Of a DNA stretch of 64,000 nucleotides, positions 6,878-18,198 are shown piece by piece. The stretch lies in contig NZ_JAJTWW010000023.1 in NCBI RefSeq assembly GCF_021729135.1, positions 1 to 64,000 on the forward strand. Direction: 5' to 3'. The position numbers were made by a program, and so were the translations under genes. The notes beneath the pieces are model-generated. The model was not told where the DNA came from, did not search any database, and saw only the letters and a list, made by a program, of their open reading frames with translations. Source of the DNA: Brevibacterium daeguense (GTDB lineage: Bacteria; Actinomycetota; Actinomycetes; Actinomycetales; Brevibacteriaceae). Within the stretch, counting starts at the first letter, position 1, and each line of letters starts with the position of its first letter.

Positions 6878-7177
6878 ATGACCGGCCCCACCGCGGAGAA
6901 GCTCCCCAACCTGTACAAGATCGACCTCGAGATCAGCCGCCCCGGCGTGGACACCTCGGCGAACTCGATGGCGACCCGCCTCGACGCCGCGAAGAGCACC
7001 TTCGCCGGCGACGCCTGGATCGGCGGTGAGTCCGACCAGTTCGGAGGGGAGATGACCCACGAGATCGGCCAGCTCGACATCTCCGCCGACATCGCCAAGT
7101 CGGAGATCCCCGACCAGCTCGCCGGGGAGCCCCTCGAGGTCGAGCCCCTCGACTGGCGCGCCCGCTGGAGCCGATGA
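6878..7177 (+). CDS. small protein coupled to polymorphic toxin
   Basis: 99 residues, no signal peptide, acidic, with alternating hydrophobics (YKIDLEISRPGVDTSANSMATRLDAAKSTFAG). I do not recognise a family, and there is no canonical WXG pair. Its size and its 4-nt stop/start overlap with the large toxin gene resemble the small helical partners or targeting factors of type VII-secreted toxins in actinobacteria; that role is inferred from position only. GGAGGA lies about 10 nt before the ATG, and a TAGCAT at 6837-6842 could be its -10. Confidence 0.7.
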   Translation: MTGPTAEKLPNLYKIDLEISRPGVDTSANSMATRLDAAKSTFAGDAWIGGESDQFGGEMTHEIGQLDISADIAKSEIPDQLAGEPLEVEPLDWRARWSR

Positions 7178-9435
7178 TGGCGCTGGCAGCGATCAACATC
7201 CCCGCGATGACCCGGCTCATCGAGCAGCTGACCACCGCCAAGGACGACATCCGCGGCGACATCCGCGGATTGTCCCGCGAACTCCAGGACCTCAAGCTCA
7301 GCTCCGCCTTCTCCGACAGCGCCGACCGCGTCTGCGAGTGGATCGACGAGCGCATCCCCGACCTGCAGCGCCGCCTGGCGCTCGCAGAGCACATCGAACG
7401 GCAGACCCCCGGCCTGCAGTCCGAGGTCGTCATTGACGAGGGAATGCTGCCGACCGCAACTCCTCAGGAGGCCCGCCGGGCCGCCGGGCACACCGCCGAG
7501 GCGATCGCGGCCTACCTGGACAACGGGCCGGCGTCGGAGATCCCGGTCGAGGTCCTCGACCATCTCCGGCAGCACGCGGGCGACCCGTACTTCGACGCGC
7601 AGCTGGCCAAGCAGGTCTCCCCCGAACAGCTCGCGGAGTTCGTCCGCCGGCTCGGCCAGGGTCGGGACCTCCTGACCCCCGATCCGTTCCGCGGCGCGGG
7701 ATACGGCCCGCCGGGCACACCCACTGCGGCTGAGCAGGAGGCCCTCACCGCATTCGACGAGCAGTACGCGCTGATCGCGGAATATCTGGGCCGCAGCTAC
7801 GGCAACTCCTCGACGCTCACCGCAGAGCTCGCCTGGACGCAGGAGCAGCACTCGGACTGGACCGCCCAGTTCTCGCCGCAGGGGTACGGGATCAGCGACA
7901 ACGCGCAGGCGCTCGGCTGGCTGATGACCTTCGGATCGTGGGATCCGGGCGTCGTGAAATCCACGGTCGAGCACATCTACGCCACCGAGCAGCACACCGG
8001 CGACGGGCCGAGGACCTGGCAGGGCGACGGCCAGTTCACGATGCCCGGCGGGGACAGAATGCAGGACCCGCTCGCCGCCGTGCTGACCCAGGCGGCGGGG
8101 AACCCCGCGCTGGCCCAGGAGCTGTTCGACGAGCAGGCGGGTCGGGAGATCAGCTTCGGCCCTGGTCCTGCGAGCCCCGGCAATCCGAACCCCGAGGACC
8201 GCAGGTACTCGACCGAGGGCCTGCTCGAATACCTCATGCTCCGGCCGTGGCCGCAGGACGAGGGCGAGACGCTGGTGGCCGCCCTGACCGGCGCCATGGG
8301 ACCGGACGCACCGAGCCTTGAGGCGGGCCAGCGGATCTCGAACCGCATCACCGAGTTCGAGGCGAAGGTCCAGGAGCAGATCGCGCAGGCGGAGGCCGAG
8401 CAGCCGTCGAACGGCAGCGCCTGGGTCCACGGACTCCTCGATGCCGCCGGACTGATCCCGGGATTCGGGGAGATCGCCGACGGGATCAACGCCGGCATCT
8501 ACGTCGTCGAGGGTGATTGGGCCAACGCCGGTCTGTCGGCAGCTGCGATGATCCCGTTCTTCGGCTGGGGAGCCACCGGCGCGAAGGGCATCAAGCACCT
8601 CGACAACCTCAATGACGCGCGGCGCGCCATCGACGGCATCGACCTCGCGGCAGATGCCGCGAAGAACCTCGACAACGTCGCCGACGCCTTCAAGGGCCTG
8701 GAGCACGTGGGCGATGCCGCCGTCGACATGAGCAGCTTCGGCAAGCGCATCGACGTGTTCGACACCCCGACCGCGAAGGTCGGCACACACATCCCGACGA
8801 ACACCCCGGGCGTCGAGATCCCGGTCAGGCGGCCCTGGCTCGACGAGATCGGCGACATCGACGACGTCGACGATCTCCTGGACTGGGCCGACGAGGCCGG
8901 CGTCACCACGCACACCAAGGCCGACTACGGCTCGGCCGACCACATGGCCGCGGACATGCTCAAGAAGAGGAACTCGCAGGGTGCGAACTTCGACTTCGAC
9001 ACCTGGAAGGCCGACTACGACACGCGCTACCTCAACTCGAAGAAGGGCTATGCCTTCGAGGAGTCGTGGTGGCGGGCCAACGAGGACCGGTTCGGGCCGG
9101 AGGGCGATCCGACCTCCAATTGGCAGAACCCCAGGCCCGGGGCACAGGACGAGGGCCTGCCGGTCGCGGCCGGTGCCGACAAGACCGACCCCGCGAGGTA
9201 CCACTCCAGCGACAAGCGCTACTTCGACGCGGTCAACCCGGAGACCAAGGAGGCCTTCGAGCTCAAGTCCGGTCAGCCGAAGGCCGACTCCGGGCAGCTG
9301 GCGAAGGACTCCGCGCTGGCCGAGCAGGGCTGGGACATCACCTACGTCTTCGCCCAGGAGCCCACGGCGAGCACCAAGAGGCGCCTGCTCGACGCGGGCA
9401 TCAGCTACGAGGTGACGGGGACGACGTTCAAGTGA
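7174..9435 (+). CDS. polymorphic toxin with C-terminal PD-(D/E)xK nuclease-like domain
   Basis: 753 residues without signal peptide. Residues 1-90 are coiled-coil-prone helices, and 90-370 a helical body. About 420-460 form a glycine-rich hydrophobic hairpin (GLIPGFGEIADGINAGIYVV, then AGLSAAAMIPFFGWGATG) typical of pre-toxin segments in secreted polymorphic toxins. The last ~130 residues are unlike the rest: FDAVNPETKEAFELKSGQ gives D685, E696 and K698 in the D-x(n)-ExK arrangement of restriction-endonuclease-fold nucleases, followed by a beta strand (WDITYVFAQEP) and a helix. It probably cleaves nucleic acid in a competitor after type VII or similar export. The immunity candidate follows 52 bp downstream. 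Confidence 0.8.
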   Translation: MMALAAINIPAMTRLIEQLTTAKDDIRGDIRGLSRELQDLKLSSAFSDSADRVCEWIDERIPDLQRRLALAEHIERQTPGLQSEVVIDEGMLPTATPQEARRAAGHTAEAIAAYLDNGPASEIPVEVLDHLRQHAGDPYFDAQLAKQVSPEQLAEFVRRLGQGRDLLTPDPFRGAGYGPPGTPTAAEQEALTAFDEQYALIAEYLGRSYGNSSTLTAELAWTQEQHSDWTAQFSPQGYGISDNAQALGWLMTFGSWDPGVVKSTVEHIYATEQHTGDGPRTWQGDGQFTMPGGDRMQDPLAAVLTQAAGNPALAQELFDEQAGREISFGPGPASPGNPNPEDRRYSTEGLLEYLMLRPWPQDEGETLVAALTGAMGPDAPSLEAGQRISNRITEFEAKVQEQIAQAEAEQPSNGSAWVHGLLDAAGLIPGFGEIADGINAGIYVVEGDWANAGLSAAAMIPFFGWGATGAKGIKHLDNLNDARRAIDGIDLAADAAKNLDNVADAFKGLEHVGDAAVDMSSFGKRIDVFDTPTAKVGTHIPTNTPGVEIPVRRPWLDEIGDIDDVDDLLDWADEAGVTTHTKADYGSADHMAADMLKKRNSQGANFDFDTWKADYDTRYLNSKKGYAFEESWWRANEDRFGPEGDPTSNWQNPRPGAQDEGLPVAAGADKTDPARYHSSDKRYFDAVNPETKEAFELKSGQPKADSGQLAKDSALAEQGWDITYVFAQEPTASTKRRLLDAGISYEVTGTTFK

Positions 9436-9487: not shown

Positions 9488-10537
9488 ATGCGCGTGAGTG
9501 ATGACGGGCAGGTCGAGGATCTCGTCGAGGTCCGGCGGCGACCGCCTCGGGCGGAGGCAGAGCAGTACTTCTGGGACTTCCAGGACAGCTGCGCCGAGCG
9601 CCTCGACGGCTTCCTCGCAGCGATCGCACCGCGACCGGAGGCACCGGCCTACTCCGTGGAATCCCTCGACGAGATCGAGGCGCTGTACCTCGAGCGCGTA
9701 CGCACACCGGCCGACCTCGACGACGCCGGCCCCCGGTCCTTCTTCTTCGACGTCTTCCGCTACGTCGGTGAGGTCATCCTCCGCACCTGCGGCGGCGAAT
9801 GGGAGTGGGAGGAGCTCTGGGAGCAGGGCGGCCCGGGCGCCGGGCTCCCGTTCGTGCGCGTCGACTCCCCGGAGGGCTACCTGCGGGGCGGCACCGTCAA
9901 CATCTACACCACGCTCACCGGCGCTGCGGGCACCCGCTCGGGACACTACTTCCGCGATCTCACCACCGCCATCCGGAACAGCTTCGGCGACGCGGGCCCG
10001 CTGCGCCGATCGTCGGGGATCACCGCGATGGGCGTCGCGGATCCCGCAGCGGTCAACCCCGCACTGCGGGACTACCTCGCCCACCATCAGGGCGAACTCG
10101 AGCGCTTCACCACCGCGCTGGCCGAGCAGGGCACGAAGCTCGACTTCACCGCGGAATCGCTCGACCGGCTCGAGCAGGTGCTGCTCGACCGCTACCCGGA
10201 CAAGGCCGACATCAAGGCCGACTTCGAGTCCTCGTTCGTCCAGCAGGCGGCCCGCTACATCGCCGAGGTGTTCGTCCGGCTGGCGGGCGGCCGGATCGAC
10301 ATCGTCGACCCGGCCGCGCTGACCCGGCGGGTCACGCCCGAGGATTCGCTGCCCTACCTCGAGCACGTGGCGGCGGACGGCACCGCCTCCCCCGCCCTGC
10401 CGCTGTCCCAGATTCTTTCGGGAGCGGTCCGGGCGAAGGCGGTGGGACGGTCGAGCACGGTCGAACCGCGCACCGGCGACAAGATCCGCGGGCAGCTCGA
10501 GCGCTACGCCGCCTCAGCCCACCCGAACAGCGGCTGA
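9488..10537 (+). CDS. probable immunity protein with an internally duplicated domain
   Basis: 349 residues, acidic, cytoplasmic, no recognised Pfam-like motif. It contains two diverged copies of one helical unit: YSVESLDEIEALYLERV with FFFDVFRYVGEVILRTCGG near 60-120, and FTAESLDRLEQVLLDRY with FVQQAARYIAEVFVRLAGG near 220-275. Its position directly after the toxin points to an immunity role, inferred. The start may instead be GTG 9494, which has better spacing to the GGGGG stretch. The last 24 nt overlap the 3' end of the convergent kinase-like gene. Confidence 0.75.
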   Translation: MRVSDDGQVEDLVEVRRRPPRAEAEQYFWDFQDSCAERLDGFLAAIAPRPEAPAYSVESLDEIEALYLERVRTPADLDDAGPRSFFFDVFRYVGEVILRTCGGEWEWEELWEQGGPGAGLPFVRVDSPEGYLRGGTVNIYTTLTGAAGTRSGHYFRDLTTAIRNSFGDAGPLRRSSGITAMGVADPAAVNPALRDYLAHHQGELERFTTALAEQGTKLDFTAESLDRLEQVLLDRYPDKADIKADFESSFVQQAARYIAEVFVRLAGGRIDIVDPAALTRRVTPEDSLPYLEHVAADGTASPALPLSQILSGAVRAKAVGRSSTVEPRTGDKIRGQLERYAASAHPNSG

Positions 10538-12985
10538 GGGCTGCTCCGGACGCTCCCCTTCCGCCGTGTGCATCCTGATGACTCCGGTGGCCCCGTCGAG
10601 GGTGACGGTCTGACCCTCGGTCAGCCGCGTCGTGACCTCGGGGACGGAGACGACGGCGGGGATGCCGTACTCGCGGGCCACGGTCGGCCCGTGCGCGATC
10701 GGTGAGCCGGTCTCCGTGATCAGACCGCCGATGGTGAGGAACAGCGGCGTCCAGCCCGGGTCGGTCGTGGCCGCCACGAGGATATCGCCGGGCCGCAGCC
10801 GCGCCTCGGACGGCTGGTGGACGATGCGCACCGGGCCGGTTGCACTGCCGGTCGCTGCCGGCACTCCCACCAGGATGTCCGGTCCGTGCTCGGACGGTGC
10901 CGCGTCAGGCAGCGTCAGCGGGTTCGTACCGTCCGACAGCAGCAGGCCCGGGATCTGCCGGCGTCGGGCCTCCCGCTGGTGCTCCCGACGCCGGTCGGAC
11001 ACCAGTGTGCGCTGATCGGCACCCTGGGCGGCGGCGACGGCTTCGGTGAGGGTCAGGAACATGATGTCGCCCGGGGCGTCCAGCAGCCCGGCGGCCGTGA
11101 GTTCGGCGCCCGCCGCCAGGAGCTGCCTGCGCGCTTCGCTGATCGGGGTCAGCCAGAGAAACTTGGGCAGTTCGCGCAGGCCCGCCAGTTCCCGGGTCCG
11201 GTGCAGCAGCGAACCGACGATCCAGGCGCGCAGCGGACGCACCCGCTCGGCTCGTCCGATGAGCTCCCGCAGGGAAGCCTCCGCCTCGGCCGCGGCGCGG
11301 GCGAACCTCGCAGACGGAGCCTGATCGGGGTCGGTGACCAGCAGATATCCGGCCAGGGCGGCGAACACCGGCGCAGGATCCTCGGCCCAGCGCGGAGCAC
11401 CGACATCGATCTCCGCAGTGCCGCGGATCCCGTACTCCGCAAGGAAGGCGGTGAGCCCGAATTCGGGCAGCAGCCCCTGCCGGAAGCGTGCGGCGAGCTC
11501 CTCCGGAGCGGTGCTGATCAGGAGCTCACGGTGGGGCGCGGCCGCCCGGGCGACCGACCAGAGCTCAAGATCCATCTGCGTGGTGACGTTGTGGGGCATG
11601 CCCCGGAGCACCGCATTCAGCTCCCCCGGGCGGATGATGCCGGTGAGGAGTCCGTTCGCCACGTTCTGGGCCAGCAGCGCGGCCCAGAGCGGAGGCAGCG
11701 AGCGCATCATCGGCCCTGTCAGGGCCGGGTCCTGGACGCTGACTGCCGCGCGGATGCGACTGCTCGTGTCCGGCGGGTCAGCAGTCGGCTCGCTGCGCAC
11801 CCGATCGAGCTCGCGGAATGCGCGCTCCCGCGCCCGGCTCGGCCGAGCAAGGGCCCACAGCGCGCCGACCAGGGCCTTGGGCACCGATGTCAGCAGCAGC
11901 CGAGAGGCCGCCCTCCGGGAGAACAGGTGCCCGCCGGGGCGTGGTGCGAAGCGGGGGTCGTCGAGAAGCTTCGCCGCACTTCGCGCAATGGCGGGACCGT
12001 AGACCCGGACGATCTCGGGCACCCGTCCTCGCAGCCGCCGGCTGTGGAGGAAGCCGGTGAGGTCCATGAACATCCGCCCGCCGATGTCGACGAGCAGCGA
12101 GTCGAGGACCGCGTCATCGGCGCCGACGAGGTTCAACCAGCGGCCGGAGACCTCGCGCAGCACCGACATGCCCATCGGGGTGAGCGGCCGGCGCAGACCC
12201 TGCACGTGCCCGACCTCCAGGTAGACACGCAGGTCATCGCGGGCAGGCGGCAGGGGGAAGAGCGTGGTGATCGCACGGGACTGCAGCAGCCAGAGCGTCC
12301 GCTCCGCATCCAGCGCCCACTCGACGTCCTGGGGTCTGTCGAAGATGCGCTGCACCCGGAGGCCGGTCGCGCGGAGTCGGCGCAGCTCATCCGGGGAGAG
12401 ACAGCCGTAGGCAGGCACCGGCCCCCGCTCCGGCAGCACATAGTGGTCGGGGTCCACAGTGCCGTCCACGACGCCGGTGCCCAGGCCCTCCACCGCATCG
12501 ACGACGGTCTCGGTGCGGGTGCCCGTGAGCGGATTGGCCGTGAACATCACGCCGGCGGCTGCCGGGGCGATCATCCGCTGGACCACGACTGCCATGCTCG
12601 GCGGCTCGGCGTCCGCGCTGTGTGCCGCCCGATAGGCGACGGCGCGGTCGCTGTCGAGAGAGCGCCAGCACCTGCGGATCGCGTCGATCAGCTCATCCTC
12701 GCCCGTGACGTCGAGGAAGGTGTCCTGCTGGCCGGCGAAACTGGCGTCGGGCAGGTCCTCGGCCGTGGCACTGGACCGCACGGCGACCGGAGGGCTCCCG
12801 AGGCGTCGGTAGGCGGCCACGACAGCCGCCTCGGGGATGATGCCGGCACGGTGCGCCTCGGTGGTCAGGCAGAAGCCGTCCGGCACCCGCTCCCCTGCGG
12901 AGATCAGGCCGGCGAGGCCGGCGGCCTTGCCGCCGACGAGATCCGTCCGGCCAGGAGGAATCCGTGCAAGGTCGATGACGTCCAT
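10514..12985 (-). CDS. PEP-utilizing enzyme, rifampin-phosphotransferase-like
   Basis: 823 residues. The N-terminal ATP-grasp domain (about 1-280) shows LVGGKAAGLAGL, VAVRSSATAEDLPDASFAGQ, AAGVMFTANPLTGTRTE and VEWALDAERTLWLLQSRAI, all typical of PEP synthase/PPDK. The C-terminal swivelling domain has GSPIAHGPTVAREYGIPAVV with phospho-carrier H765. The long variable middle and ATP-grasp/central/His order match rifampin phosphotransferase (RPH, about 865 residues), which inactivates rifamycins with ATP. There is no PEP/pyruvate TIM-barrel domain, so it is not PEP synthase. Substrate specificity is not proven by sequence. Confidence 0.82.
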   Translation of the reverse strand: MDVIDLARIPPGRTDLVGGKAAGLAGLISAGERVPDGFCLTTEAHRAGIIPEAAVVAAYRRLGSPPVAVRSSATAEDLPDASFAGQQDTFLDVTGEDELIDAIRRCWRSLDSDRAVAYRAAHSADAEPPSMAVVVQRMIAPAAAGVMFTANPLTGTRTETVVDAVEGLGTGVVDGTVDPDHYVLPERGPVPAYGCLSPDELRRLRATGLRVQRIFDRPQDVEWALDAERTLWLLQSRAITTLFPLPPARDDLRVYLEVGHVQGLRRPLTPMGMSVLREVSGRWLNLVGADDAVLDSLLVDIGGRMFMDLTGFLHSRRLRGRVPEIVRVYGPAIARSAAKLLDDPRFAPRPGGHLFSRRAASRLLLTSVPKALVGALWALARPSRARERAFRELDRVRSEPTADPPDTSSRIRAAVSVQDPALTGPMMRSLPPLWAALLAQNVANGLLTGIIRPGELNAVLRGMPHNVTTQMDLELWSVARAAAPHRELLISTAPEELAARFRQGLLPEFGLTAFLAEYGIRGTAEIDVGAPRWAEDPAPVFAALAGYLLVTDPDQAPSARFARAAAEAEASLRELIGRAERVRPLRAWIVGSLLHRTRELAGLRELPKFLWLTPISEARRQLLAAGAELTAAGLLDAPGDIMFLTLTEAVAAAQGADQRTLVSDRRREHQREARRRQIPGLLLSDGTNPLTLPDAAPSEHGPDILVGVPAATGSATGPVRIVHQPSEARLRPGDILVAATTDPGWTPLFLTIGGLITETGSPIAHGPTVAREYGIPAVVSVPEVTTRLTEGQTVTLDGATGVIRMHTAEGERPEQPSAAVRVG

Positions 12986-13804: not shown

Positions 13805-13840
13805 GCCCACCGTCGTTTGACATATCAAGTGACGGTGGGC
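13805..13840 (+). terminator. perfect 10-bp inverted repeat after the HdeD-type gene
   Basis: GCCCACCGTC (13805-13814) and GACGGTGGGC (13831-13840) pair perfectly around a 16-nt loop that contains a second dyad, TTGA/TCAA. It lies 34 nt past the stop at 13771 and just before the leader peptide, so it probably insulates the two units. Confidence 0.7.
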
Positions 13841-13852
13841 TTCAATTCATGG

Positions 13853-13933
13853 GTGACCACGCACTCTCCGGGCCTGCTGTCGTGGCGGCGCCTCCACATC
13901 GACCTCATGCGGTTCACCACCGTCCTCTGTTGA
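13853..13933 (+). CDS. Cys-ending regulatory leader peptide upstream of metQNI
   Basis: A 26-codon reading frame from GTG 13853 to TGA 13931-13933 whose C-terminal part reads RRLHIDLMRFTTVLC. Short peptides with an R-R-x-H-[IV]-D-L-x-R-x-x-x-x-L-C ending recur before sulfur and cysteine transport or metabolism genes in actinobacteria, where translation across the Cys codon reports Cys-tRNA supply. The single Cys is the last residue before the stop. It lies 253 nt upstream of metQ, with a GC-rich hairpin at 13981-14007 between them, an arrangement consistent with attenuation. The start could also be internal. No initiating ribosome site stands out. Confidence 0.7.
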   Translation: MTTHSPGLLSWRRLHIDLMRFTTVLC

Positions 13934-13980
13934 CGGTCTCACGCCGGCCCGCGCGCTGACGCCTCCGGTCTGGCAGGCAG

Positions 13981-14007
13981 CGCTGACGCCCGGCCCGCCG
14001 GGCAGCG
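13981..14007 (+). promoter_or_regulatory. candidate attenuator hairpin between leader peptide and metQ
   Basis: CGCT-gac-GCCCGG (13981-13993) pairs with CCGGGC-AGCG (13998-14007) around a 4-nt loop. It starts 47 nt after the leader-peptide stop. It could be a Rho-independent or ribosome-responsive attenuator. The rest of 14008-14186 is GC-rich with no riboswitch signature that I can recognise. Confidence 0.45.
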
Positions 14008-14186
14008 TTGATGCCTCTGAGCGCACCACAGCACCTGCCGCGCGCCTTCCGAACGCGCCATCCTCGCGCGCCACCTTCGATCCGCATTTCACCGCGCCCG
14101 CCGCTTCCGCGGGGCCACCCGCCGGACCTGCTCCGCGAGTCTCCGCCCGCCGCCGAGGCGCGCCACCCGCCACGAAAGACGTCACC

Positions 14187-15140
14187 GTGCCCAATTCATC
14201 CGCTTCATCCAGCTCCACCCACGCCTCCGTCCAGGAGCAGCTCGCCAAGCGCCGCGCCGGACGCAGGAAGGGCCTGATCATCGGCGCCGTCATCCTCGTC
14301 GTCGCCCTGATCGCCGTCTTCGGCATCGCATTCCTGCAGCGCGGCGCCGGCGCTGAGACCACCACCCTCAAGATCGCCGACACCGCCCAGAGCGACTACC
14401 AGGACGCGATCGTCGAAGTCGGCAAGGAGAACGGACTCGACCTCGAGTTCGTCAACTTCGACGATCCCTACCTGCCCAACACCGCGCTGCTGCAGGGCGA
14501 GGTCGACGCGAACTCCTTCCAGCACATCGCCTGGCTGAGCGCCTTCAACACCGAGAACGGCTCCGACATCACGCCGCTGTTCTCGACCAACATCTCCCAG
14601 TGGGGTCTCTTCTCCAGCACCCTCGATTCGGTCGAGGACATCCCGGACGGCGCTCGGATCGCGATGCCGGACGACCCCTCGAACTTCTCCCGCGGCCTGT
14701 TCATCCTGCAGAGCGCCGGCCTGCTCGAGATCAGCGACGAACAGGGCTTCTACCCCACCGAGGAGCAGATCACCGCGAACCCGAAGAACATCGAGTTCGT
14801 CCGGCTCGCCCACGAATCCGTGCAGACCGCCTACGACGACCCGTCGGTCGACGCGCTCGTCGTCGCCACCGACGACTTCGACCCCGCGCTCGGCATCACC
14901 ACCGCCGACGCCCTCCAGGTCGAGGATCCCGAGGCGCCCTCCTCGGTCCCATACACCATCGTGGTGGCGACGCTGCCGGACCGTGCCGAGGATCCGGTGT
15001 GGGAGAAGCTCGAGGAGACCTATCGCGATCAGCGCGTGATCGACGCCTTCAACGAGGAGAAGAACGGCCAGGCCGCCTATGTCGATCGTCCTCGCAGCGA
15101 GCTCGTCAACGTGCTCGAAGAGCTCAGCGCCGGCGAATGA
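14187..15140 (+). CDS. metQ: MetQ/NlpA-type substrate-binding protein, membrane-anchored
   Basis: 317 residues from GTG 14187. Residues 1-28 are polar, and about 29-52 form one membrane helix (GLIIGAVILVVALIAVFGIA), after which TLKIADTAQSDYQDAIVEVG begins the NlpA/MetQ fold. ALLQGEVDANSFQHIAWL and IAMPDDPSNFSRGLFILQSAG are family hallmarks. MetQ binds methionine outside the membrane for MetNI. Unusually there is no lipobox Cys, so it should be held by an uncleaved N-terminal helix with a cytoplasmic tail. Its stop overlaps metN. Confidence 0.9.
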   Translation: MPNSSASSSSTHASVQEQLAKRRAGRRKGLIIGAVILVVALIAVFGIAFLQRGAGAETTTLKIADTAQSDYQDAIVEVGKENGLDLEFVNFDDPYLPNTALLQGEVDANSFQHIAWLSAFNTENGSDITPLFSTNISQWGLFSSTLDSVEDIPDGARIAMPDDPSNFSRGLFILQSAGLLEISDEQGFYPTEEQITANPKNIEFVRLAHESVQTAYDDPSVDALVVATDDFDPALGITTADALQVEDPEAPSSVPYTIVVATLPDRAEDPVWEKLEETYRDQRVIDAFNEEKNGQAAYVDRPRSELVNVLEELSAGE

Positions 15141-16159
15141 TGTCTCGCATCGTCCTGTCCGAGGTGTCCAAGTCGTTCACGACCGACACGGGCGTGCACA
15201 CGGATGCCCTGCGGAACGTCAGCCTGAACGTCGAGTCGGGTGAGATCTTCGGCCTCATCGGCCGCTCCGGGGCGGGCAAATCCACCCTGCTGCGGATGAT
15301 CAACGCCCTGGAGCGGCCCACCTCGGGCTCGGTGCAGGTCGACGGAGTCGACCTCGCGCAGGTGTCCGGGGACCGGCTGCGGAAGATGCGGCACGGGATC
15401 GGCATGGTGTTCCAGCAGTTCAACCTCATGAACTCGCGCACCGTGTTCGGCAACATCGCGGTGCCGCTCAAGCTGGCCGGCTGGAAGGAGGACGACATCG
15501 CCACCCGGGTGGCCGACCTCCTCGACTTCGTGGGCCTCGGCGACAAGGCGTTCGTCAAGCCGCGCCGGCTGTCCGGCGGGCAGAAGCAGCGGGTGGGGAT
15601 CGCGCGGGCGATCGCCAACCAGCCCGACATCCTGCTGTCCGACGAGGCCACGAGCGCGCTCGACCCGCAGACCACCGCGGAGATCGTGGCGCTGCTGCGC
15701 AGCGTCAACGAGGAGTTCGGCATCACCATCGTCGTGGTCACCCACGAGATGGACGTGGTCAGCAGCCTGGCCGACCGGGCGGCGATCCTCAGCCAGGGCG
15801 AGGTCGTGGAGCTGGGGCCGATCCAGCAGATCCTGTCCAAGCCGCAGCACCCGCTGACCGCCGCGCTCGTCCAGTCCTACACCCGCACCTCGCTGACCGA
15901 GGAGGAGAAGGCGGCGCTGCGGGAGGAGTTCCGCGAGCACCGCATCTCCGTGGCGGTGGACGACGCCTTGGTCGAGACCCCGATCCTGTCCCGGCTGGCC
16001 CGTGGCCACACCGTCGACTTCTCGATCATCCAGGGCGGCGTCGCGCGGGTGAAGAACCAGCCCTACGGGCAGCTCAGCCTGGCCCTGCACGGCGAGGAGT
16101 CCGCCATCGAGGCCTTCGTGTCCGAACTCAGCACGCATGCGGAGGTGACGCGCTGGTGA
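15137..16159 (+). CDS. metN: methionine ABC transporter ATP-binding protein
   Basis: 340 residues; two ATGs overlap at 15137 and 15140, and the first gives the ATGA overlap with metQ. It has Walker A GLIGRSGAGKST (about 38-49), a Q-loop in VFQQFNLM, signature LSGGQKQRVGIARA (about 144), Walker B ILLSDEATSALD and a switch His in VVVTHEMD. The C-terminal ~90 residues (ILSRLARGHTVDFSIIQGGV, then GQLSLALHGEE) form a NIL domain, the methionine-sensing module that trans-inhibits MetNI. This makes methionine or a close analogue the likely cargo. Confidence 0.94.
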   Translation: MMSRIVLSEVSKSFTTDTGVHTDALRNVSLNVESGEIFGLIGRSGAGKSTLLRMINALERPTSGSVQVDGVDLAQVSGDRLRKMRHGIGMVFQQFNLMNSRTVFGNIAVPLKLAGWKEDDIATRVADLLDFVGLGDKAFVKPRRLSGGQKQRVGIARAIANQPDILLSDEATSALDPQTTAEIVALLRSVNEEFGITIVVVTHEMDVVSSLADRAAILSQGEVVELGPIQQILSKPQHPLTAALVQSYTRTSLTEEEKAALREEFREHRISVAVDDALVETPILSRLARGHTVDFSIIQGGVARVKNQPYGQLSLALHGEESAIEAFVSELSTHAEVTRW

Positions 16160-16812
16160 TCGATCTCGCCACAGTCCTGCCCAAGGTGGCCCAGGCCACC
16201 GCGGAGACGCTGTACATGGTCACGGTGGCCTTCGTGCTCGCCTCGATCATCGGCCTGACGCTGGGCATCTTCCTGTTCGCCACCCGCCCGGGCCAGATCC
16301 TGGGCAACCGGGTGGTCCACTTCAGCCTCAACTTCGTCGTCAACACCTTCCGGCCGATCCCGTTCATCATCCTGCTGGTGGCGCTGACTCCGTTCACCCG
16401 CGCCCTGATCGGCACGAGCATCGGCCCGACCGCGGCGATCCCGCCGCTGACGATCGCCGGAGCGATGGGGATCGCACGGGTCGCCGAATCCAACCTCGTC
16501 GCCGTCGATCCCGGAGTCGTCGAGGCCGCCGAGGCGATGGGCGCCCGGCCGCTGCACATCCTGTTCGGGTTCGTGGTCCGGGAGGCATTCGGGCCGCTGC
16601 TGCTGTCGCTGACGTTCATCTCCATCTCGCTCATCGACGCCACGGCGGTGGCGGGCGCCGTGGGCGGCGGCGGCCTGGGCAACCTGGCCCTGACGTACGG
16701 CTACCAGCGGTTCGACTGGGCGGTGATGCTGCTGATCATCATCGTGCTGATCGTGCTGGTGCAGCTTGTCCAGTTCCTCGGCAACTGGATCGCGAAGCGC
16801 TTCATCGACTGA
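16156..16812 (+). CDS. metI: methionine ABC transporter permease
   Basis: 218 residues from GTG 16156, overlapping the metN stop as GTGA. About five membrane helices; the cytoplasmic EAA loop reads VEAAEAMGARPLHILFGFVV and would contact MetN. FRPIPFIILLVALTPFTR is characteristic of MetI-type permeases. It completes the metQNI importer. The next gene is 114 bp away, across a hairpin. Confidence 0.93.
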   Translation: MIDLATVLPKVAQATAETLYMVTVAFVLASIIGLTLGIFLFATRPGQILGNRVVHFSLNFVVNTFRPIPFIILLVALTPFTRALIGTSIGPTAAIPPLTIAGAMGIARVAESNLVAVDPGVVEAAEAMGARPLHILFGFVVREAFGPLLLSLTFISISLIDATAVAGAVGGGGLGNLALTYGYQRFDWAVMLLIIIVLIVLVQLVQFLGNWIAKRFID

Positions 16813-16926: not shown

Positions 16927-18198
16927 ATGAGCAACGACAGCGGCATGAATGCCGAGGACATCGGCACCGGCGCAGCGGCGGGAGCCGGCGGGGCCGTGGG
17001 AGCCGGCGGGCGCCTCGGCGGGGCCAGCTCCCTGCTGAGCAGGCTGCCCGGGCGACAGGGCTTCGGCGACGCGAGCCTCGTCACGGCCGGCGAGGGTGCG
17101 ATCGATCTCAGCGGGGGCAATCCCGACACCTCGCTGCTGCCAGCCGAGCTCCACCGCGAGGCCGCGCGCGACTACTTCGAGGGCGCCGGGTACGCCTCCA
17201 CCCTCGGCTACGTTCCCGCTCCCGGGATCGCTTCGCTGCGTGCCACCCTCGCTGAGCGGGAGGGTGTGGACCTCGAGCGCATCATCGTCACCAACGGCGG
17301 CGCCCACGGGCTGGCGCTGGCCGTGCTCGGCACGCTGGATCCCGGTGACACGATCGTCGTCGACGACCCGGTCTACCCGCTGTTCCTGCGCACCCTGGAC
17401 CTGCTGACCGGGGTCACGATCGAGTCGGTGGGGGTGGAGGCCGACGGGTTCGACGTCGACGAGCTCGAGGCGAAGCTGGCTCGGGGGCTGCGGCCGAAGG
17501 CCGTGTTCACGGTGCCGACCTTCCACAATCCGAGCGGGGCGGTGCTGTCGCTGGAGAAGTCCCGACACCTGACGGAGCTGGCGGAGAAGTACGGCTTCAT
17601 CGTGTTCGCCGACGACCCCTATCAGGAGCTCGCGTTCCCCGGTGTCGAGGTGCCGGAGCACACCTGGGTCCGCGACAGCGAGCATGTCATGGGCATCCAC
17701 ACCTTCGCCAAGACGCTGGGCCCCGCGCTGCGCCTGGGCTGGCTCGTCGTGCCGACGCATCTGAGCGGGCAGTACGTGAAGATGCGCAACCGGATCGAAG
17801 GGCAGACGAGTGGCGTGCTGCAGGAGCTCGCGCAGCGGATCATCACCCGGCCGGAGTTCGCGCAAGTCACCCGGGCGGCCGGAGCCGCCTACGCGCAGAA
17901 GGCGCGGACGCTGACGAATGCGCTGCACCGCGAGCTGCCCGGGCAGCTGGAGATCATCGAGCCGCAGGGCGGGTTCTTCCTGTGGGCGCGCTTCCGGGAG
18001 CAGGACGCCGACTTCGCCCGGCTGTACGACGCCGCGCAGGACGAAGGCCTGGTGTACCAGCGCGGCGAATGGTTCGGAGTCGGCGAACCGGCCCGCACCA
18101 GCGGCTGCCTGCGCCTGACCTTCGCCGCGCCGAGCGTGACCGACCTGGAGGAGGGCGCCGTCCGCCTGGGCCGGGCATGGAAGCGCGTGACGGGGTAG
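16927..18198 (+). CDS. PLP-dependent aminotransferase (class I/II)
   Basis: 423 residues with a glycine/alanine-rich first 40. ISLGGxxP-like DLSGGNPDTSLLP, TNGGAHGLALAVLGTLDPGD, VPTFHNPSGAVLS, VFADDPYQEL and HTFAKTLGPALRLGW (PLP-binding K262) place it in fold type I, nearest the alpha-aminoadipate/kynurenine/MocR-type group that transfers an amino group to 2-oxoglutarate. The substrate is unknown. Being downstream of metQNI suggests sulfur amino-acid turnover, but the hairpin between them weakens the link. GGGAGGG precedes the ATG. Confidence 0.9.
   Translation: MSNDSGMNAEDIGTGAAAGAGGAVGAGGRLGGASSLLSRLPGRQGFGDASLVTAGEGAIDLSGGNPDTSLLPAELHREAARDYFEGAGYASTLGYVPAPGIASLRATLAEREGVDLERIIVTNGGAHGLALAVLGTLDPGDTIVVDDPVYPLFLRTLDLLTGVTIESVGVEADGFDVDELEAKLARGLRPKAVFTVPTFHNPSGAVLSLEKSRHLTELAEKYGFIVFADDPYQELAFPGVEVPEHTWVRDSEHVMGIHTFAKTLGPALRLGWLVVPTHLSGQYVKMRNRIEGQTSGVLQELAQRIITRPEFAQVTRAAGAAYAQKARTLTNALHRELPGQLEIIEPQGGFFLWARFREQDADFARLYDAAQDEGLVYQRGEWFGVGEPARTSGCLRLTFAAPSVTDLEEGAVRLGRAWKRVTG

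Follow-up and report, generated by a model that had tools for sequence, protein, structure and literature searches.

A probable cysteine-sensing leader peptide precedes a divergent metQNI-type importer operon in Brevibacterium daeguense

We analysed a 64,000-nucleotide stretch of Brevibacterium daeguense DNA (contig NZ_JAJTWW010000023.1, positions 1 to 64,000 of the forward strand), hereafter called the window; L and G numbers are our handles for loci and genomes. On the plus strand, a 26-codon frame with a GTG start and a TGA stop (13853-13933) lies ahead of an importer operon. The metQ-like gene (14187-15140, +) encodes a divergent NlpA/MetQ binding protein that has a membrane anchor and no cysteine and matches PF03180 at 168.5 bits (cut-off 27). 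It is followed by a metN-like ATPase gene with a NIL domain (15137-16159, +; ABC_MetN 314.4 bits versus a curated 499.7, NIL 51.3 with a cut-off of 24) and a metI-like permease gene (16156-16812, +; MetI 173.6 bits versus a curated 212, BPD_transp_1). A class I/II aminotransferase gene (16927-18198, +; PF00155, 143.6 bits) is probably part of the same operon. An aminotransferase gene also sits directly 3' of metI at L131, L003 and L132, and about 1 kb further on at L133. Elsewhere in the window, the minus-strand gene at 10514-12985 encodes a protein resembling phosphoenolpyruvate synthase or rifamycin phosphotransferase, and its score for the latter is 441 bits, where the cut-off is 999. By eye, a 753-aa protein (7174-9432, +) has the look of a polymorphic toxin with a nuclease-like end, and the gene after it (9488-10537, +) may be its partner.

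The short frame runs from GTG at 13853 to TGA at 13931-13933 and translates as VTTHSPGLLSWRRLHIDLMRFTTVLC*. It matches the NCBIfam model NF042934 ("putative leader peptide", cis_reg_atten) with 19.9 bits and an E value of 4e-4, which is below the curated whole-protein cut-off of 27 bits. Residues 11-26 align with profile positions 4-19 of 19, so that the alignment reaches the last position of the profile with the Cys at the end. When the genome was scanned in six frames with NF042934, this frame was the top match (18.4 bits, E 0.012 for one genome), and the runner-up reached 12.2 bits. Searches of the leader against Pfam gave no match, and the NCBIfam scan reported none to NF042936. There is no polycysteine run: the only Cys is the very last residue, encoded by TGT at 13928-13930 directly before the stop. 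An overlapping ATG frame at 13849 was tried as a coding alternative and rejected, as its first 36 residues have no NCBIfam match. A sequence-only reading of this DNA had proposed a 26-codon frame with Cys as its final codon, and both points are borne out. We conclude that the frame very probably encodes a leader that senses Cys and belongs to a known type.

The frame is conserved within the genus. A DNA pattern for WRRxHIDL occurs once each in 18 of 57 same-genus genomes, and none of the 57 contains the reversed control pattern. All 18 sites fall within short frames that have Cys at or adjoining the stop; 17 end in Cys and one (L062) ends in CCCH. Only DNA similarity revealed a nineteenth genus leader (L028, G033), which sits at the edge of a contig. 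Behind the 18 leaders we found metQ in three (G000, G010 and G029) and another ABC binding protein, marked by a common YFEPQ motif, in the remaining 15. The one of these 15 that we scanned (L055) matches TIGR04028 with 634.8 bits (cut-off 468.5), and one leader before such a protein exceeds the NF042934 cut-off with 30.8 bits. The leaders of the window's two same-genus metQ siblings (G010 and G029) score 24.0 and 24.3 bits, both under 27. The closest named genome found is Brevibacterium sp. CS2 (L003).

Conservation of the last 15 codons in close relatives, whose absence was to count against the sequence-only reading, was found: pairwise, the three metQ leaders differ at 2, 2 and 0 of their last 15 residues, and at 12, 10 and 5 of 78 nucleotide positions. 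The start lies exactly 26 codons before the stop in 16/18 genus leaders, and 17/18 end in UGU UGA. Over 16 distinct genus tails (L062 left out), variation was seen at 12/16 third, 8/16 first and 5/16 second codon positions, a coding-type pattern; the three metQ leaders alone show no third-position excess of substitutions.

The codon for the putative regulatory Cys is itself unusual. It is UGU in 41 of 43 leaders, comprising all 17 Cys-ending genus leaders and 24 of 26 from other families. The Cys codons of the ten genes adjoining leaders are all TGC (14/14, UGU 0/14), and those of the 37 called genes in the window are TGC in 88/93 and UGU in 5/93, counts that rest on rough gene calls that missed metN and also underlie the gap ranking given below. 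Among 25 other-family leaders (L079 left out), 23 have T as the third base of the Cys codon. Elsewhere in the same 25 leaders, A or T occupies the third base in 0-6 of 25 in 13 columns and in 12 of 25 in one Arg column. Because the leader sequences are related, the UGU counts cannot be turned into a probability, yet they clearly depart from the codon use of the genomes themselves. A rare UGU would be expected to raise the sensitivity of the ribosome to charged tRNA-Cys.

We propose a promoter at 13817-13846 (+), with TTGACA at 13817-13822, an 18-nt spacer and TTCAAT at 13841-13846, followed by 6 nt and the GTG. By eye, 16/18 genus leaders share this layout (TTGAC, 17-18 nt, TTCAAT or TTAACT, 6 nt, RTG). 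The shared spacing from promoter to RTG would fit a leaderless transcript, but a scan with the sigma-70 consensus found no promoter at the leader. An inverted repeat at 13805-13840, with 16-nt arms that are 88% complementary and 4 nt apart, covers the proposed -35 box and spacer. It is possibly an operator or a hairpin of the upstream gene, and was not seen by eye in L003 or L131.

Leaders of this kind also occur beyond the genus. NF042934 matches with E up to 0.1 were found in 170 of 396 genomes of the order and exceeded the cut-off in 41; many of the weak matches must be chance, because E values up to 0.1 were allowed. One of 14 control genomes gave a match, and none above the cut-off. The 26 other-family leaders considered here are a subset of the NF042934 matches, made up of L103 and the retrieved loci with the highest scores, no more than one per genome. 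At L103 (G104, another family) a leader with 29.8 bits, above 27, ends 116 nt before the putative start of a metQ whose product is 63% identical to that of the window; the leader and such an importer therefore co-occur in two families. To NF042936, the Ms4527A family Cys-rich leader peptide (cut-off 45), the leader before a genus binding-protein gene and the L103 leader score weakly, at 17.8 and 20.6 bits. At L102, where metQ is 61% identical, a pattern scan of up to 700 nt upstream showed no leader. The same scan found no NF042934-type leader before the more distant MetQ homologs examined, so that L103 alone has one. It covered 39 loci besides the three same-genus ones, including the near-duplicates L011/L012, L013/L018/L019 and L022/L023, and L016 with only 83 nt upstream; nine further metQ matches lie outside this set.

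Most of the ten scanned proteins behind leaders (nine from other families, one from the genus) belong to sulfur metabolism. They include CysD, a nitrite/sulfite reductase, a rhodanese-domain protein, TauE/SafE, a taurine dioxygenase (TauD; 283.6 versus a cut-off of 313) and an importer at L087 (TIGR04028, 187.7 bits, under the cut-off), along with a sodium:dicarboxylate symporter, an FAD/NAD-binding protein and an SBP_bac_1 protein. The likeness to actinobacterial leaders before sulfur genes, which had been noted from the letters of the window, thus holds up, as leaders of the same family precede CysD, nitrite/sulfite reductase, TauD, TauE/SafE and TIGR04028-type importers. The arrangement typical of an actinobacterial Cys-responsive leader attenuator, in which a small conserved frame carries Cys close to its stop codon ahead of genes linked to sulfur, is seen here. 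Many of the best-scoring leaders of the order (L074-L079, L081, L084, L088, L089 and L093) precede a symporter of the sodium:dicarboxylate family, by scan for L074 and by eye for the rest; this symporter is possibly a cystine carrier.

Rfam reported no family at gathering score anywhere in the 64-kb window, and therefore no SAM riboswitch was recognised before its leader; none was seen in the six Brevibacterium loci searched either. In other families, the Cys leader is immediately preceded by a SAM-I or SAM-IV aptamer in the same orientation at 11 of the 26 leader loci at gathering score (L072, L080, L083, L085, L087, L090, L091, L092, L094, L101 and L103), and a twelfth (L100) is just under the threshold with 42.5 of 44.4 bits. 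With a SAM sensor and a Cys leader in such a tandem, a single transcript could respond to both ends of sulfur metabolism. At L105 (861-1042) and L106, a metQ about 50% identical to that of the window stands behind a SAM-I aptamer and then a Cys-rich frame. The L105 frame, the one of the two tested, was matched by no NCBIfam model, NF042934 included.

The MetQ of the window is, by its sequence, a divergent paralog and a second copy. It falls under the NCBIfam MetQ subfamily cut-offs (PRK11063, 116.4 of 374; TIGR00363, 114 of 228.85). The genome's other MetQ is canonical, with 267.9 bits versus 169 for the window copy and with its lipobox and its VIN and PYTN motifs intact. In Neisseria meningitidis MetQ, according to passages of PMC6739813 and PMC12357092, R156, N213 and N238 hold methionine, and Y81, F98, H100 and Y103 pack against the thioether. 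The same passages give affinity losses of over 10^5-fold for N238A and over five orders of magnitude for Escherichia coli N229A. In the window protein, Ile258 stands at this Asn position (E. coli Asn229, N. meningitidis N238), so that the Asn ligand is lost. The column holds Ile in 5 of the 45 rows of our alignment (the window, L009, L010, L102 and L103) and Asn in the other 40. Ligand positions R169, F111 and H113 are kept, and Ala227, Pro94 and Trp116 replace N213, Y81 and Y103; the Ala227 assignment is our own and is less certain because a one-residue insertion follows it. Fourteen rows of the clade to which the window protein belongs carry a membrane anchor instead of a lipobox, as do three rows outside it. 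MetQ, MetN and MetI together contain no Cys in 875 residues, where 5.2 would be expected from 35 other called genes (Poisson 0.005), although 3 of these 35 likewise lack Cys and one of the three encodes 835 aa.

Taken together, canonical binding of free L-methionine by the window importer is improbable, and the importer probably has another cargo. A cargo that includes cyst(e)ine had been suggested. The part of this idea that sets simple methionine aside is plausible, since the methionine-holding Asn is lost (Ile258) and the genome has a second, canonical MetQ, but cyst(e)ine is a possible cargo that nothing in our analysis singles out. SAM riboswitches before metQ at L103, L105 and L106, in other families, also link importers of this kind to the methionine/SAM side. 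Because a probable Cys leader stands before it, the importer is probably switched on when cysteine is short; it is built without cysteine and apparently wanted during cysteine shortage.

The gap between leader and metQ (13934-14186, +) is an untranslated, C-rich and G-poor stretch of 253 nt and a candidate Rho region. Its excess of C over G (C minus G 0.178) ranks first among 26 gene-upstream stretches, by the rough gene calls, and is reached by 0.22% of all 253-nt windows. C exceeds G in 17/17 leader gaps (L054 and L062 are left out of this and of the ribosome-binding-site accessibility and pairing counts). The sequence-only reading had placed control in a GC-rich hairpin downstream of the leader, and this did not survive. 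The hairpin (about 13972-14015, +; -28.7 kcal/mol for 50 nt) is made up of an imperfect 25-nt tandem repeat (76%, 13965-14014), and is not beyond chance, as 15 of 100 dinucleotide shuffles of the gap match its energy. A 361-nt region is no more structured than its own shuffles (z +1.16). A terminator scan found no intrinsic terminator between leader and metQ and no U-run, so that the hallmark of a classical attenuator is missing. Alignments between the gaps of relatives are barely better than those of shuffled gaps: the three same-genus loci give identities of 156, 161 and 166, where the best of 20 shuffles give 166, 156 and 162, with one pair within and two slightly above the shuffled gaps, and no pair with L103 is above.

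We consider it probable that a leaderless, Cys-terminated leader makes expression of metQNI and the aminotransferase depend on charged tRNA-Cys, with an output most likely through Rho. To judge from the promoter spacing, RNA polymerase would begin the transcript on or beside the GTG, with a ribosome loading on its 5' end. With Cys-tRNA plentiful, the ribosome would read UGU and leave at UGA, exposing the 253-nt C-rich stretch, and Rho would most likely stop transcription before metQ. With Cys-tRNA scarce, the ribosome would halt at the terminal rare UGU and the operon would be kept open. Against this explanation stand the sub-threshold scores of the window leader and its two metQ siblings, the single Cys codon, the missing third-position excess among the three metQ leaders, the negative promoter scan and the lack of a leader at L102 in the pattern scan. 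A C-rich, G-poor gap with no terminator favours Rho-dependent attenuation. Two points count against Rho: most of the 253-nt gap would stay exposed with a ribosome on the Cys codon, and at 13 loci with the other binding protein the gap spans just 52-117 nt, which is short for Rho loading. For the output step we tentatively rank Rho first and translational release second.

In translational release, leader RNA free of ribosomes would pair with the metQ ribosome-binding site, and halted or queued ribosomes would break the pairing and allow metQ to be translated. We regard this as rather unlikely for the window, although it is the mechanism reported for the Mycobacterium smegmatis Cys leaders in passages of PMC13236596 and PMC9031893. 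The ribosome-binding-site stretch at 14167-14178 (+) is complementary to leader positions 13877-13888 (12 nt, 92%), and its predicted pairing with the leader of 0.60 is reached by 3 of 30 shuffled leaders. This pairing is 0.02 at L131, and at L103 half of the shuffled leaders reach the native value. Covering the leader lifts predicted accessibility of the Shine-Dalgarno (SD) stretch from 0.39 to 0.59 at L003, which 0 of 30 shuffled leaders do, but in the window accessibility does not rise when the full leader is covered (0.34 to 0.30), and changes at the other loci are small or mixed. Placing a ribosome at the Cys codon shifts it appreciably at one of 17 loci (L003), with 0.34 and 0.34 in the window. 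Termination at the GC-rich hairpin, averted when a ribosome halts, is the least probable mechanism of all. A strong hairpin is present in the gap, but besides the shuffles and the missing U-run, the own best gap folds of relatives are reached by 29, 19 and 13 of 100 shuffles, and at L055, L057, L065 and L066 the 21-nt hairpin-forming stretch that follows the stop in other genus leaders is, by eye, absent altogether. Scarcely more credible is a reading with no Cys sensing, in which the frame encodes a conserved peptide without regulatory function or arose by chance in conserved DNA near the promoter: the low score, the lone Cys and the lack of third-position excess among the three metQ leaders fit it, but the constant length and start spacing (16/18), the UGU UGA ending (17/18), the coding-type variation over the genus and the association of leaders with sulfur genes speak against it.

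Beyond the Cys-responsive leader that we favour, we tentatively put forward a bolder proposal, possible but more doubtful than the leader mechanism itself, in which the operon is a sulfur scavenger for cysteine starvation and not a methionine importer. It would combine a cysteine-free, anchored MetQ paralog, a remodelled site for the amino-acid head group and an aminotransferase behind, and would possibly import a sulfur compound that lacks a free alpha-amino group, for instance a derivative of methionine or cysteine with a 2-oxo or other modification. It would be switched on by ribosome halting at one rare UGU, and the UGU bias (41/43 leaders of the order) would hold as a design rule for actinobacterial Cys leaders generally.

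How does this locus compare with known systems? In 2005, Seliverstov et al. predicted actinobacterial Cys leader peptides and weakly suggested Rho for the mycobacterial ones (PMC1262725). Such leaders were tested in M. smegmatis by Canestrari et al. in 2020, according to passages of PMC9031893, PMC9094748 and PMC13236596. As far as these sources describe them, the leaderless polycysteine leaders of mycobacteria and the 2005 candidates share with the window leader a short frame, Cys near its end, sulfur genes behind and no conserved terminator. The mycobacterial polycysteine leaders have a leaderless start, as we infer for the window, but carry a Cys run before biosynthesis genes, whereas the window leader, known here from sequence, has one Cys codon before an importer. 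In Streptomyces lividans, metL is a leaderless leader that, like the window leader with its presumed leaderless start, precedes a MetNIQ-type operon; termination there is unclear, with no typical intrinsic terminator mentioned in passages of PMC8079986. It differs in encoding another peptide of 29 residues with Met and Cys codons, and its authors call it methionine-dependent (PMC8079986). In the open-licence literature we found no report of Cys leader-peptide attenuation in Brevibacterium, where the search led to a paper on indole production, and no title or abstract describing a tandem of SAM riboswitch and leader. An importer of uncertain cargo is thereby added to the Cys-leader regulon. Its leader gives a clue to the conditions under which the cell needs it, and its binding site makes free L-methionine an unlikely cargo. 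How actinobacteria balance methionine against cysteine supply may show in two general, testable features, namely the UGU bias and the pairing of SAM aptamer with Cys leader in relatives.

The MetQ of the window shares the PF03180 fold family and the Arg, Phe and His ligand positions with the E. coli and N. meningitidis proteins, as far as the sources describe these, but differs from them in Ile258, Ala227, Pro94, Trp116, the one-residue insertion and the missing lipobox. The window leader has the RR-x-H-[IV]-D-L core and terminal Cys of the NF042934 and NF042936 families, but differs in scoring 19.9 of 27 bits and in having its sole Cys as the very last residue. Members above the NF042934 cut-off include the L103 leader before a metQ ortholog and one leader within the genus. 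This kind of leader is thus already known, and the member described here is a new one, attached to an importer of uncertain cargo.
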